In this document: positions 5,732-60,892 of the stretch, piece by piece
Layout of the letters: each line of letters opens with the position of its first letter
Numbering within the stretch: position 1 is the stretch's first letter
Source of the DNA: Acidobacteriota bacterium
GTDB taxonomy: Bacteria > Acidobacteriota > Terriglobia > Acidiferrales > UBA7541
Assembly: GCA_003154775.1 (NCBI GenBank)
Contig: PMES01000077.1
Location: 57,330 to 121,329, forward strand
Reading direction: 5' to 3'
Length of the DNA stretch: 64,000 nucleotides
Notes under the pieces: model-generated
Told to the model about the DNA's origin: nothing
What the model saw: only the letters and a program-made list of their open reading frames with translations
Database searches by the model: none
Position numbers and translations under genes: made by a program

Positions 5732-5783
5732 GGATCCCTCCACTGCGGCCCGCAAACCACGCGGGCCTTCGGTCGGGATGACA
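5732..5783 (-). repeat. TGTCAT-family repeat arm with variant hairpin
   Basis: GGATCCCTCC at one end and GGTCGGGATGACA at the other flank a GCGGCCCGC...GCGGGCC hairpin. The TTCGGTCGGGATGACA end is identical to those at 1-22 and 1044-1059. Confidence 0.55.
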
Positions 5784-5936: not shown

Positions 5937-5968
5937 AAAGCAGATCCCTCGCGTTGCTCGGGATGACA
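5937..5968 (-). repeat. TGTCAT-family repeat arm, short form
   Basis: Reads AAAGCAGATCCCTCGCG...CTCGGGATGACA, the standard arm with its short CGAGCnnnGCGAG hairpin. No matching inverted partner lies within 100 bases. Confidence 0.6.
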
Positions 5969-6842: not shown

Positions 6843-8015
6843 GTGCATCGCCCCGCAATCCTTGCGCTGGAAGACGGGCGCGTCTTTAACGGCCGCGCTG
6901 CCGGCGCCATCACGCGCCGGGGCGGGGAAGTCGTTTTCAATACCAGTCTCACCGGTTACCAGGAAGTTTTCACCGATCCCAGCTATGCAGGACAGATCGT
7001 TTGTTTGACGTATCCGCACATTGGCAATGTGGGCGCCAATCTGGATGACGAGGAATCTGCGCGGCCGTATATCGAGTCGCTGATCGTGCGGGAGTTTTCG
7101 CAGATATCGTCGAATTGGCGGTCGACGGAAACGGCGCAGTTGTACCTGAACCGGCACAAGATTCCGGTGATTTGGGATATTGATACGCGCGCGCTGGTGC
7201 GCCACATCCGCAAGGTCGGGGCGCTTCGCGGCATGGTGGCCACTGATGGCACGGCTGCCGACCAATTGATCCATGAAGCCAAGCAGCTTCCGCTGATGGC
7301 GGGGCAGGAGCTCGCAGGCCGCGTGACCTGCGCGAAAGGCTACGACTGGCAGCAGGGCTCGATTGAGCTGGCCACTTCACCGTGGGCCGAGCAGATGGGC
7401 GAAGCGGGAACGAGTCCCGATGCCCGGCAGTTTCGCGTGGTGGCTTACGATTACGGGATCAAGCAAAACATTCTGCGGCTGCTGGTGGATCACCACTGCG
7501 AAGTCAGCGTCGTGCCCGCAAACACTCCCGCGGAGGATGTGATGGCGATGCGCCCGGACGGCGTGTTTCTCTCGAATGGGCCGGGCGATCCCGAGCCCGT
7601 CACCTACGCCATCGAGAACATCCGCAAGCTGGCGGGGCGCGTGCCGATCTTCGGAATTTGCCTGGGGCACCAGTTGTGCGGGCTGGCGCTGGGCGGGAAG
7701 ACGTTCAAGCTGAAGTTCGGGCACCATGGCTCGAATCACCCGGTGAAGAATTTATTGACGAGCCAGGTGGAAATCACTGCGCAAAATCACGGGTTTTGTG
7801 TGGATCCGGAATCGATGCCATCCAGTGAAGTCGAGATCACCCACGTTAATTTGAACGACGGGACCAATGAGGGCATGAGGAGCAAGACCCTGCCGCTTTT
7901 TAGCGTGCAGTATCACCCGGAGGCCTCGCCGGGGCCGCACGATTCGCATTATCTGTTCACGCAGTTCACGGATTTGATGAAGGAATTTGCGCATCCGGGG
8001 AGCTCGCGGGGATGA
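6843..8015 (+). CDS. carA: Carbamoyl-phosphate synthase small subunit
   Basis: A 390-residue glutaminase subunit that supplies ammonia to CarB for carbamoyl phosphate, the precursor of arginine and pyrimidines. The N-terminal CPSase domain (LALEDGRVFNG, FNTSLTGYQEVFTDPSYAGQ) precedes a class I glutamine amidotransferase with nucleophile Cys in FGICLGHQL and the His/Glu of QYHPEASPGP. The GTG start at 6843 follows an ACGGAAG stretch. It lies 33 bases after the lepB remnant. carB follows after a 511-bp interval filled mainly by a repeat-flanked nuclease gene. Confidence 0.96.
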   Translation: MHRPAILALEDGRVFNGRAAGAITRRGGEVVFNTSLTGYQEVFTDPSYAGQIVCLTYPHIGNVGANLDDEESARPYIESLIVREFSQISSNWRSTETAQLYLNRHKIPVIWDIDTRALVRHIRKVGALRGMVATDGTAADQLIHEAKQLPLMAGQELAGRVTCAKGYDWQQGSIELATSPWAEQMGEAGTSPDARQFRVVAYDYGIKQNILRLLVDHHCEVSVVPANTPAEDVMAMRPDGVFLSNGPGDPEPVTYAIENIRKLAGRVPIFGICLGHQLCGLALGGKTFKLKFGHHGSNHPVKNLLTSQVEITAQNHGFCVDPESMPSSEVEITHVNLNDGTNEGMRSKTLPLFSVQYHPEASPGPHDSHYLFTQFTDLMKEFAHPGSSRG

Positions 8016-8088
8016 GAACCGCATATAAACGGTGGGCGCAGTTGAGGAATTGGCGAGGTGCCAAGAAACCGTAAAACGGACCCAAAAC

Positions 8089-8464
8089 TGTCATACCGAG
8101 CGGAACGAGGGATCTGCTTTTAGGGTTTGAACATGGAGAGGTTCTACCACGTTTATATTTTCGCGAGCAGATCTCGAGTTTTGTACATAGGGGTCACCGG
8201 TCATTTGCTTGAACGTGTGAAGCAGCATCGGGAAGGGCTGGTCCCTGGTTTCACAAGCCGGTACCGCGTTTACCGGCTGGTGCACTTTGAGCCGTATCAG
8301 GATGTAAGAGCAGCAATCGCCCGCGAGAAGGAGATCAAGGGCTGGAATCGGGCGAAGAAGTTGGCTTTGATCGAGAGGCGCAATTCTGCGTGGGAAGATT
8401 TGGCGGGCGATTTGTTTGCGGCCTACCCGCGAAAAGCGGATCCCTCGCTTCGCTCGGGATGACA
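8089..8464. mobile_element. Putative small element: inverted repeat arms framing a GIY-YIG gene
   Basis: The left arm (8089-8121) starts TGTCATACCGAG and ends GATCTGCTTTT. The right arm (8432-8464) is its inverted counterpart, starting AAAAGCGGATCC and ending GGGATGACA. The two match at 29 of 33 positions by hand count. They bracket one complete GIY-YIG nuclease gene, and the whole unit splits carA from carB. The same arms occur without a gene at 19380, 43515 and 49087. No clear target duplication is visible. The mobility claim is inference. Confidence 0.55.
8133..8462 (+). CDS. Small GIY-YIG domain nuclease
   Basis: A 109-residue single-domain GIY-YIG (URI-type) protein. It has YHVYI and LYIGVT as the two signature strands, an Arg in LLERVKQH, and the metal-binding Glu expected in AIAREKEIKGW. 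Stand-alone members resemble UvrC/homing-endonuclease catalytic domains, but their roles are poorly known. ATG 8133 has AGGG seven bases upstream. The last residues (KADPSLRSG) and the stop are encoded by the right repeat arm, so gene and repeat are physically fused. It may nick or move the repeat, or simply have been carried with it. Confidence 0.85.
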   Translation: MERFYHVYIFASRSRVLYIGVTGHLLERVKQHREGLVPGFTSRYRVYRLVHFEPYQDVRAAIAREKEIKGWNRAKKLALIERRNSAWEDLAGDLFAAYPRKADPSLRSG

Positions 8465-8526
8465 ATTTGGGGGTTGGGATGACAAGTCCGAGGTTGGGCT
8501 GAGAATTTTCGCTATTGGGATTGACC

Positions 8527-11787
<3,261 letters not shown>

Positions 11788-19379: not shown

Positions 19380-19478
19380 TGTCATCCCGAGCGAAGCGAG
19401 GGATCTGCTTTTCGCATGGGACCAGGGAAAAGCAGGTTCCTCGCCCCGTTCAAAAAGCGAACGGGGCTCGGAATGACA
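19380..19478. repeat. TGTCAT-family palindrome, gene-less (MITE-like)
   Basis: The left arm 19380-19412 starts TGTCATCCCGAG and ends GATCTGCTTTT. A short loop leads to the inverted right arm 19428-19478, whose hairpin is longer (CGCCCCGTT...AACGGGGC), ending GGAATGACA. This is the same arm pair as at 8089-8464 but without the nuclease gene. It lies just upstream of the acyl-CoA dehydrogenase gene. Confidence 0.75.
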
Positions 19479-24139: not shown

Positions 24140-24204
24140 GAGGAATCCGCTTTTGTTTTCATCGCGGCAGAAAAAGCAGATTCCTCGCTTCGCTCGGAAT
24201 GACA
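24140..24204. repeat. TGTCAT-family palindrome, left arm truncated
   Basis: GAGGAATCCGCTTTT (24140-24154) is the inner end of a left arm that lacks its TGTCAT outer end. The full right arm AAAAGCAGATTC...GGAATGACA is at 24172-24204. It lies between mtnP and the kinase gene. Confidence 0.6.
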
Positions 24205-30915: not shown

Positions 30916-31097
30916 TGTCATCCTGAGGGGCGCGCCGGGCGTTTACCCCGACCTGGTCGGGGCGCCCCGAAGGATCTCAACCGCAACGCGGTGCATGATT
31001 CCAAGGTTGAGGTCCTTCGGCAATCTCCGGTTTTGGGAGTCCGGTGGACTCCACCGGAGTCCTGGCACCGGACCTCATCGGATTGCCTCAGGATGAC
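30916..31097. repeat. TGTCATCCTGAGG long palindrome
   Basis: Starts TGTCATCCTGAGG with GCGCC-rich hairpins and CGAAGGATCTCAACC. It then turns to GGTTGAGGTCCTTCGG, a TCCGGTGGACTCCACCGGA hairpin and GCCTCAGGATGAC. It is a relative of the TGTCAT family with CCTGAGG/AAGGATCT in place of CCCGAG/GGATCTGC. It fills most of the plsC-lpxD gap, between convergent genes, where it may terminate both. Confidence 0.6.
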
Positions 31098-43514: not shown

Positions 43515-43615
43515 TGTCGTCCCGAGACTCGTTCGCCCTTGAGCGGGGGGAGTAACCTGTTTTCCCCCGGGCCTCTTGCGAAAAAAACAGATTCCCCGCT
43601 GCGCTCGGAATGACA
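43515..43615. repeat. TGTCAT-family palindrome, gene-less
   Basis: Outer ends TGTCGTCCCGAG (43515) and CTCGGAATGACA (43615) with inner AACCTGTTTTC and AAAACAGATTC. The left arm has an enlarged hairpin (GTTCGCCCTTGAGCGGG). It lies between the CCA enzyme and dnaE. Confidence 0.65.
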
Positions 43616-49086: not shown

Positions 49087-49186
49087 TGTCATCCCGAGCG
49101 CAGCGAGGGATCTGCTTTTCGCAGAGGGCCAAAGAAAAAGCGGATTCCTCGCCCCGTTTAAAAAGCGAACGGGGCTCGGAATGACA
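49087..49186. repeat. TGTCAT-family palindrome, gene-less
   Basis: TGTCATCCCGAGCG to GATCTGCTTTT, loop CGCAGAGGGCCAAAG, then AAAAGCGGATTC with the long CGCCCCGTT...AACGGGGC hairpin and GGAATGACA. It is nearly the same as 19380-19478. It sits just upstream of the next gene. Confidence 0.75.
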
Positions 49187-58594: not shown

Positions 58595-58627
58595 TGTCAT
58601 CCCGAGCGAAGCGAGGGATCTGTTTTT
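58595..58627 (+). repeat. TGTCAT-family repeat arm, single
   Basis: TGTCATCCCGAGCG...GGGATCTGTTTTT; a left arm without a partner, abutting the 16-bp tandem repeats. Confidence 0.65.
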
Positions 58628-60851: not shown

Positions 60852-60892
60852 TGTCATCCCGATCCCGCAAAGCGGGAGAGGGATCTGCTTTT
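60852..60892 (+). repeat. TGTCAT-family repeat arm with variant hairpin
   Basis: TGTCATCCCGA, then a TCCCGC-AAA-GCGGGA hairpin in place of the usual short one, then GAGGGATCTGCTTTT. It shows that the arm ends are conserved while the hairpin varies. Confidence 0.65.

Follow-up and report, generated by a model that had tools for sequence, protein, structure and literature searches.

CGTC-tagged REPs, among them dRS3 of Neisseria, are intergenic repeats that occur mainly as inverted pairs and are recognised by a CGTC, TGTC or CCTC tag and a stem that opens with complementary AT; the survey describing them found no association with transposase genes and no dedicated transposase (Di Nocera, De Gregorio and Rocco 2013, PMC3733652). 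In the REP/RAYT (TnpA-REP) systems and REPINs, a small nuclease gene lies between inverted hairpin repeats with many gene-less derivatives, the partner being a Y1 (HUH) transposase and the tag GTAG. Free-standing GIY-YIG homing endonucleases are selfish and patchily distributed, and are expected to insert into a single conserved target, where they disrupt the sequence that the enzyme itself recognises. Slx1, a GIY-YIG enzyme with a C-terminal RING-type domain, is a nuclease acting on branched DNA.

The unit analysed here was found between carA and carB in a 64,000-nucleotide stretch of acidobacterial DNA, the whole of which is called the window below. It meets the REP/RAYT criterion of a gene flanked by repeats with many gene-less derivatives, and shares with those systems a low gene number, roughly one to a few in each genome, and the co-diversification of enzyme and repeat. 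However, its partner is not a Y1 transposase but a member of the GIY-YIG superfamily, without an HUH motif or a covalent tyrosine intermediate, and its tag is GTC rather than GTAG. Since the tag and enzyme criteria both fail, the element works like REP/RAYT but is not a member of it. With the free-standing homing endonucleases it shares the catalytic domain and the selfish, patchy distribution, but it has multicopy hairpin flanks of its own, gene-less derivatives and many unrelated intergenic sites with no conserved target outside the arms, so that the homing criterion is not met. UPF0213/YhbQ and Slx1 are nearest to the enzyme in sequence and fold; unlike them, it is not encoded by a fixed housekeeping gene, and it lacks the RING-type domain. 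The likeliest identity of the unit is a REP/REPIN-type element that is driven by a GIY-YIG nuclease instead of a Y1 transposase, the movement by the nuclease being inferred. No earlier report linking GIY-YIG and REPs was found in the open literature, a search that left out preprints and most subscription journals.

The gene unit in the window and its arm repeats

The unit occupies positions 8089–8464. Its left arm (8089–8121, plus strand, TGTCATACCGAGCGGAACGAGGGATCTGCTTTT) and its right arm (8432–8464, minus strand, TGTCATCCCGAGCGAAGCGAGGGATCCGCTTTT), both REP hairpins and inverted relative to each other, enclose a plus-strand gene for 109 amino acids (8133–8462) with an ATG at 8133 and a TGA at 8460–8462. 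Upstream is a plus-strand gene (6843–8015), aligned in relatives, which we take to be carA (carbamoyl-phosphate synthase small subunit), and downstream is carB (large subunit, 8527–11787, plus strand) with a GTG start at 8527. The best inverted match at the unit scored 26, whereas none of 200 shuffles exceeded 12. A preliminary description, made from the letters alone, had reported this layout: its hand count of 29 identical positions in two inverted 33-bp arms was reproduced exactly (the match extends to 35 of 41 positions, 8081–8121 and 8432–8472), the single small gene between them is a GIY-YIG nuclease (PF01541, 47.5 bits, cut-off 22.6), the unit does separate the two car genes (carA stop at 8015), and arm copies do occur elsewhere in the window without the gene.

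The left arm is partly decayed, with an A-G mismatch in the stem and another mismatch damaging the loop, and its computed DNA fold is unpaired. The TGA lies within the right arm, part of which thus encodes the C-terminus of the protein. Because the left hairpin is damaged and the gene has lost its own stop into the right arm, the copy in the window is probably old and ageing, with the catalytic residues of its protein still intact. Its flanks could not be aligned base by base to any empty site.

The arms follow the consensus T-GTC-AT-NNN-GA-GCGNAGC-GA-N'N'N'-AT-CTG, of which the window holds 8 copies (0 expected from shuffles) and the 4.63-Mb genome 49 (0 for a reversed-pattern control). Single copies matching the REP pattern are found at 5941–5968, 24177–24204 and 43588–43615 on the minus strand and at 19380–19407 and 58595–58622 on the plus strand. 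A gene-less, REPIN-like pair with outward tags lies at 49087–49186, and its inner tails, CTGCTTTT and AAAAGCGG, are also present in the gene unit. Three related GTCAT hairpins, two with a long apical stem (5734–5783, minus strand; 30916–30979, plus strand) and one with a longer apical stem than the arms (60852–60889, plus strand), are of the same type as the hairpins beside the other two GIY-YIG genes in the genome.

Evidence for the hairpin comes from 102 distinct copies, gathered without requiring pairing, in 101 of which the three-base stems are complementary; shuffling the partners gave at most 37. The stems covary among TCC/GGA, CCC/GGG, CCT/AGG, TCT/AGA, TTC/GAA and GCT/AGC, and the inner pair covaries as well (GCGAAGC to ACGAAGT), while position N of the GCGNAGC core varies freely. 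The predicted structure has 5 bp, a tandem G-A, 2 bp and a loop of 3 nt. Since the folding energy of the acidobacterial hairpin DNA is unremarkable (z -0.69 and 0.19), it is covariation, not energy, that supports the hairpin. DNA mini-hairpins of the d(GCGAAGC) type are known for unusually high stability. Such mini-hairpins are touched on in PMC10527192 and PMC4686876.

The arms meet the CGTC REP tag criterion (CGTC or TGTC/CCTC) and that of a stem starting with complementary AT. The AT was built into the acidobacterial search pattern, and it also appeared in arms located independently, by inverted matching, and at most loci. The 8–9 bp stem with a 4–5 nt loop and the CCA tail of CGTC REPs are not found in the window-type arms, which have a CTG tail; the stem and loop are met by proteobacterial arms of the family, and CCA is present at most proteobacterial loci. 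The 5-bp stem is shorter than that of CGTC REPs, and the tandem G-A mismatches and the inner GCGNAGC mini-hairpin are further differences. Because of the shorter stem with G-A mismatches and the CTG tail, the acidobacterial arms are, on their predicted fold, a variant rather than a typical example of the CGTC REP class. In Azospirillum, Neisseria, Aeromonas, Rhizobium, Shinella, Sphingobium and others, the family gene has these repeats themselves as its arms: the Azospirillum gene is flanked by CGTCATCCCCGCGAAGGCGGGGATCCAG and the Neisseria gene by CGTCATTCCCGCGCAGGCGGGAATCTAG, and repeats of the same kind flank the gene in Novosphingobium, Bradyrhizobium and Sphingomonas. The preliminary description, right about the element-like layout, had missed that its arms belong to a repeat class already described. 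Where the survey had no transposase link to offer, the gene associated with the repeats here is GIY-YIG, and it is likely that this family is the long-missing partner of the 'orphan' CGTC REPs. A specific, testable candidate is thereby available for common short repeats of alphaproteobacteria and Neisseria.

Distribution, derivatives and mobility of the unit

Homologues were taken from 61 relatives, plasmid records, 80 named genomes and 297 genomes of the phylum, without using arms as a criterion, and were split by BLAST score into a close family (at least 86 bits) and distant GIY-YIG genes (at most 66 bits). Arms, i.e. REP hairpins and/or long inverted arms, were present at 159 of the 168 family loci versus 4 of the 43 distant loci (Fisher p 3e-29); homologues mostly devoid of arms, which would have refuted the idea of a nuclease with recognised ends, were thus not what was found. 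A strict GTC/CTC hairpin lay no more than 250 bp from the gene at 127 family loci, and a long inverted arm was detected at 119 of them, compared with 2 of 320 control windows displaced from those loci. In the related genomes, GTC-type hairpins accompanied 24 of 31 GIY-YIG loci but only 1 of the 30 Y1-transposase (RAYT-type) loci. The unit was found in Pseudomonadota, Acidobacteriota, Bacteroidota, Cyanobacteriota, Chloroflexota, Armatimonadota, Patescibacteria, Omnitrophota and others. Arm orientation in the family is mixed, with 57 (+,-), 16 (-,+), 15 (+,+) and 7 (-,-). A within-genome arm-pairing test (30 vs 11) is given little weight, since several of the high scores came from orthologous sites. 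Tags-inward arms with long apical stems were seen at two other GIY-YIG loci of the window's genome (L001 and L004) and at L049 and L073.

Gene-less repeat pairs in the genomes of 7 relatives were tag-outward in 22 cases and tag-inward in none, in support of the non-autonomous derivatives postulated earlier. This is also the commonest arm orientation around the gene, and it fulfils the CGTC REP criterion of one predominant orientation of inverted pairs; we infer that tag-outward corresponds to the survey's 'HH'. The count of window-type REPs had a median of 34 in genomes with a family gene and 4 in those without (p 4e-5, uncorrected for phylogeny). Three genomes (G040, G041 and G031) have many repeats yet no family gene, possibly owing to incomplete assemblies. 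In Sphingobium TomTYG64 (L372), a lone palindrome remains that has apparently resulted from a deletion between the CCCCGGG stretches of the two arms, which suggests a way for solo REPs to arise from a unit.

The ends of the unit were located by comparing aligned copies with 74–95% DNA identity. In the copies of Sphingomonas IC081 and Novosphingobium (L188/L193), which have unrelated surroundings, homology is bounded on both sides by the outer GTC tags; two Bradyrhizobium copies (L180/L210) are likewise homologous only within the outer tags on both sides, and two within-genome pairs (L271/L273 of G240 and L244/L267 of G225) lose homology at the same tags. The remaining aligned pairs have long common flanks and represent orthologous insertions. 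Filled and empty sites were also identified. In Azospirillum lipoferum 4B the unit lies between sufB and sufC, a site that is empty in A. ramasamyi, A. oryzae and strain B510, although about 96% of the flanking positions are the same. The fnrL site of Sphingobium plasmids is full in TomMM15 and TomTYG46, has only one hairpin in TomTYG64 and is empty in TomTYG72, and an acidobacterial site is filled in G240, occupied by a different repeat pair in G092 and empty in G375. In these sequence comparisons the gene and both arms act together as a single mobile unit. No target-site duplication, which together with a transposase domain marks a classical insertion sequence, was evident at the aligned empty sites, the flanks of which had diverged, and comparisons of copies did not reveal an exact cut position. 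Among the flanks on Sinorhizobium and Rhizobium plasmids no clean empty site was present, only mosaic repeat matches or filled sites.

The distant GIY-YIG genes, represented by L002, L003 and L006 in the window's genome and L056–L065, L077–L087 and L282–L301 in relatives, seem to make up another kind of element. Their two ends carry direct repeats at 17 of 43 loci (1 of 81 displaced controls), more than half of the loci contain a tRNA or tmRNA gene that mostly adjoins the GIY-YIG gene, and in the window's genome the repeat is the 3' end of a tRNA.

The enzyme and how the unit may move

GIY-YIG is the only domain in the 109-aa protein, and profile searches detected no transposase domain. The superfamily criterion of catalytic Tyr, Arg and Glu is met, with Y8, Y18-x-G20, R28, E65 and N84 conserved in 36 sequences. 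An AlphaFold model of the protein (mean pLDDT 84, with the final 10 residues disordered) has UPF0213 (BH0048) and Slx1 as its closest folds, and the nearest solved structure by sequence is 1zg2 (E 6e-8). No curated NCBIfam family scored above its cut-off for the protein, and PADLOC returned only weak homing-endonuclease matches. A phage origin was rejected, as the gene had no match in PHROGs or phage records. The dN/dS ratios of 0.02–0.28 in 14 pairs indicate purifying selection, and hence some working function of the protein. Enzyme and arms have diversified together (Mantel r 0.437, against a largest permuted value of 0.138 in 999 permutations, for proteins less than 70% identical).

We consider it probable that the unit belongs to a widespread group of tiny mobile elements consisting of one GIY-YIG gene between two REP hairpins, with tags mostly outward, and moved by means of the element's own nuclease and host repair. 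In such a scheme, the nuclease would recognise the REP hairpins of its own element when these are folded in single-stranded DNA (e.g. the lagging strand) or as a cruciform, much as Slx1-like GIY-YIG enzymes recognise branched DNA, and would nick at the outer GTC tags or close to them. Once freed or copied, the unit could then enter a new intergenic site through host replication or repair, and gene-less pairs and single REPs (the CGTC REPs) would be non-autonomous derivatives acted on in trans. GIY-YIG active sites hydrolyse DNA with no covalent intermediate, unlike HUH enzymes such as RAYT, and we know of no GIY-YIG enzyme that joins DNA; host joining factors would be needed because no covalent link is formed. 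Cross-phyla association, outer ends, presence and absence in close relatives, derivatives, co-diversification and selection are established by comparing genomes, whereas the driving of movement by the nuclease itself is an inference, with no experiment on cutting or movement behind it. The mixed arm orientation, the lack of an identified cut position or target duplication, and the genomes rich in repeats but without a family gene count against this reading. The proposal of an autonomous element with derivatives therefore stands as far as arms, ends, gene-less pairs and empty sites are concerned, but not yet for its motor. A wider proposition finds slightly more for it than against it, namely that a class of bacterial mobile elements moves through the action of one GIY-YIG hydrolase on hairpin ends of DNA, with no transposase, recombinase or reverse transcriptase involved, and that this class generated the CGTC REPs, including dRS3 of Neisseria, across a dozen or so phyla. 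If the nuclease does move the unit, GIY-YIG would join the few enzyme folds that power DNA mobility, by a repair-dependent route and not by strand transfer; split operons such as carA-carB and sufB-sufC would be explained, and annotation would improve for the numerous genes that at present carry the name 'GIY-YIG nuclease family protein'.

The main rival, to which we allow a small chance, is a homing endonuclease nested in REPINs: another enzyme would spread the REP pairs, and the GIY-YIG gene would home into them by cutting gene-less copies, for the repair of which a copy with the gene serves as template. In its favour, the GIY-YIG domain is classic for homing endonucleases, a group I intron endonuclease model is weakly matched by 8 of 12 family members, and the gene sits between the two halves of a pair that is found elsewhere, with the same inner tails, without it. 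However, units occur at sites that are wholly free of repeats in close relatives, the number of REPs is higher where the gene is present, and no other gene is known or was seen to accompany the repeats (PMC3733652; Y1 genes, 1 of 30 loci).

It is less probable again that the protein serves the host as a structure-specific nuclease which resolves or controls REP hairpins, with a REP kept alongside for autoregulation of its mRNA and nothing being mobile. REPs can function at the RNA level, Slx1 is among the closest solved folds, and the strong purifying selection would suit such a role, but a host gene would not be expected to be only patchily present at each site, to exist in several divergent copies in one genome, to share homology across the unit alone when the sites are unrelated, or to leave sites empty. 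Mere hitch-hiking, in which GIY-YIG genes are mobile alone and REPs simply accumulate in the same intergenic spaces, is very improbable and already contradicted. REPs are indeed intergenic and clustered, and 40 of the 320 displaced windows contain some, but arms match far better within a locus than between loci (a score of at least 18 in 61% and 5.5%, respectively), homology stops at the outer tags, and the distant GIY-YIG genes, although likewise intergenic, are without arms. The element with its own nuclease remains our preferred reading.

The carA-carB spacer in relatives

The distance between carA and carB is at most 68 bp in 18 of the 42 relatives measured and long in the others, and these many long spacers mark the site as variable in this order. 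The GIY-YIG unit occupies it in 4 of the 42 genomes, which belong to four genera (G000, G036, G038 and G039), and it is absent from the other 38, while the family has numerous further locations and corresponding empty sites are known away from car; fixation at car, which would have spoken against a mobile unit, is thus not observed. Three further genomes (G037, G040 and G047) have a Y1 transposase gene immediately before carB, which makes the spacer look like an insertion hot spot. Vertical inheritance of the unit as an old component of the car operon in this order is scarcely credible, the occurrence of the unit between the two genes in four genera being outweighed by the 38 spacers without it (18 of them no longer than 68 bp), by the lack of a supported clade of the four car-locus proteins and by this hot-spot appearance. 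The protein tree is unresolved, however, so that a single old insertion at car cannot be excluded. Empty car spacers establish the absence of the unit in relatives, but they gave no base-exact junction, the flanks outside the arms being too diverged.

Many of the other spacers contain small unrelated ORFs. In several filled spacers (L075/L136 of G039, G011, G015, G017, G027 and G038), a partial duplicate of the 5' end of carB precedes the insert and an intact carB start follows it; this duplicate may have been left behind by the mechanism of insertion.
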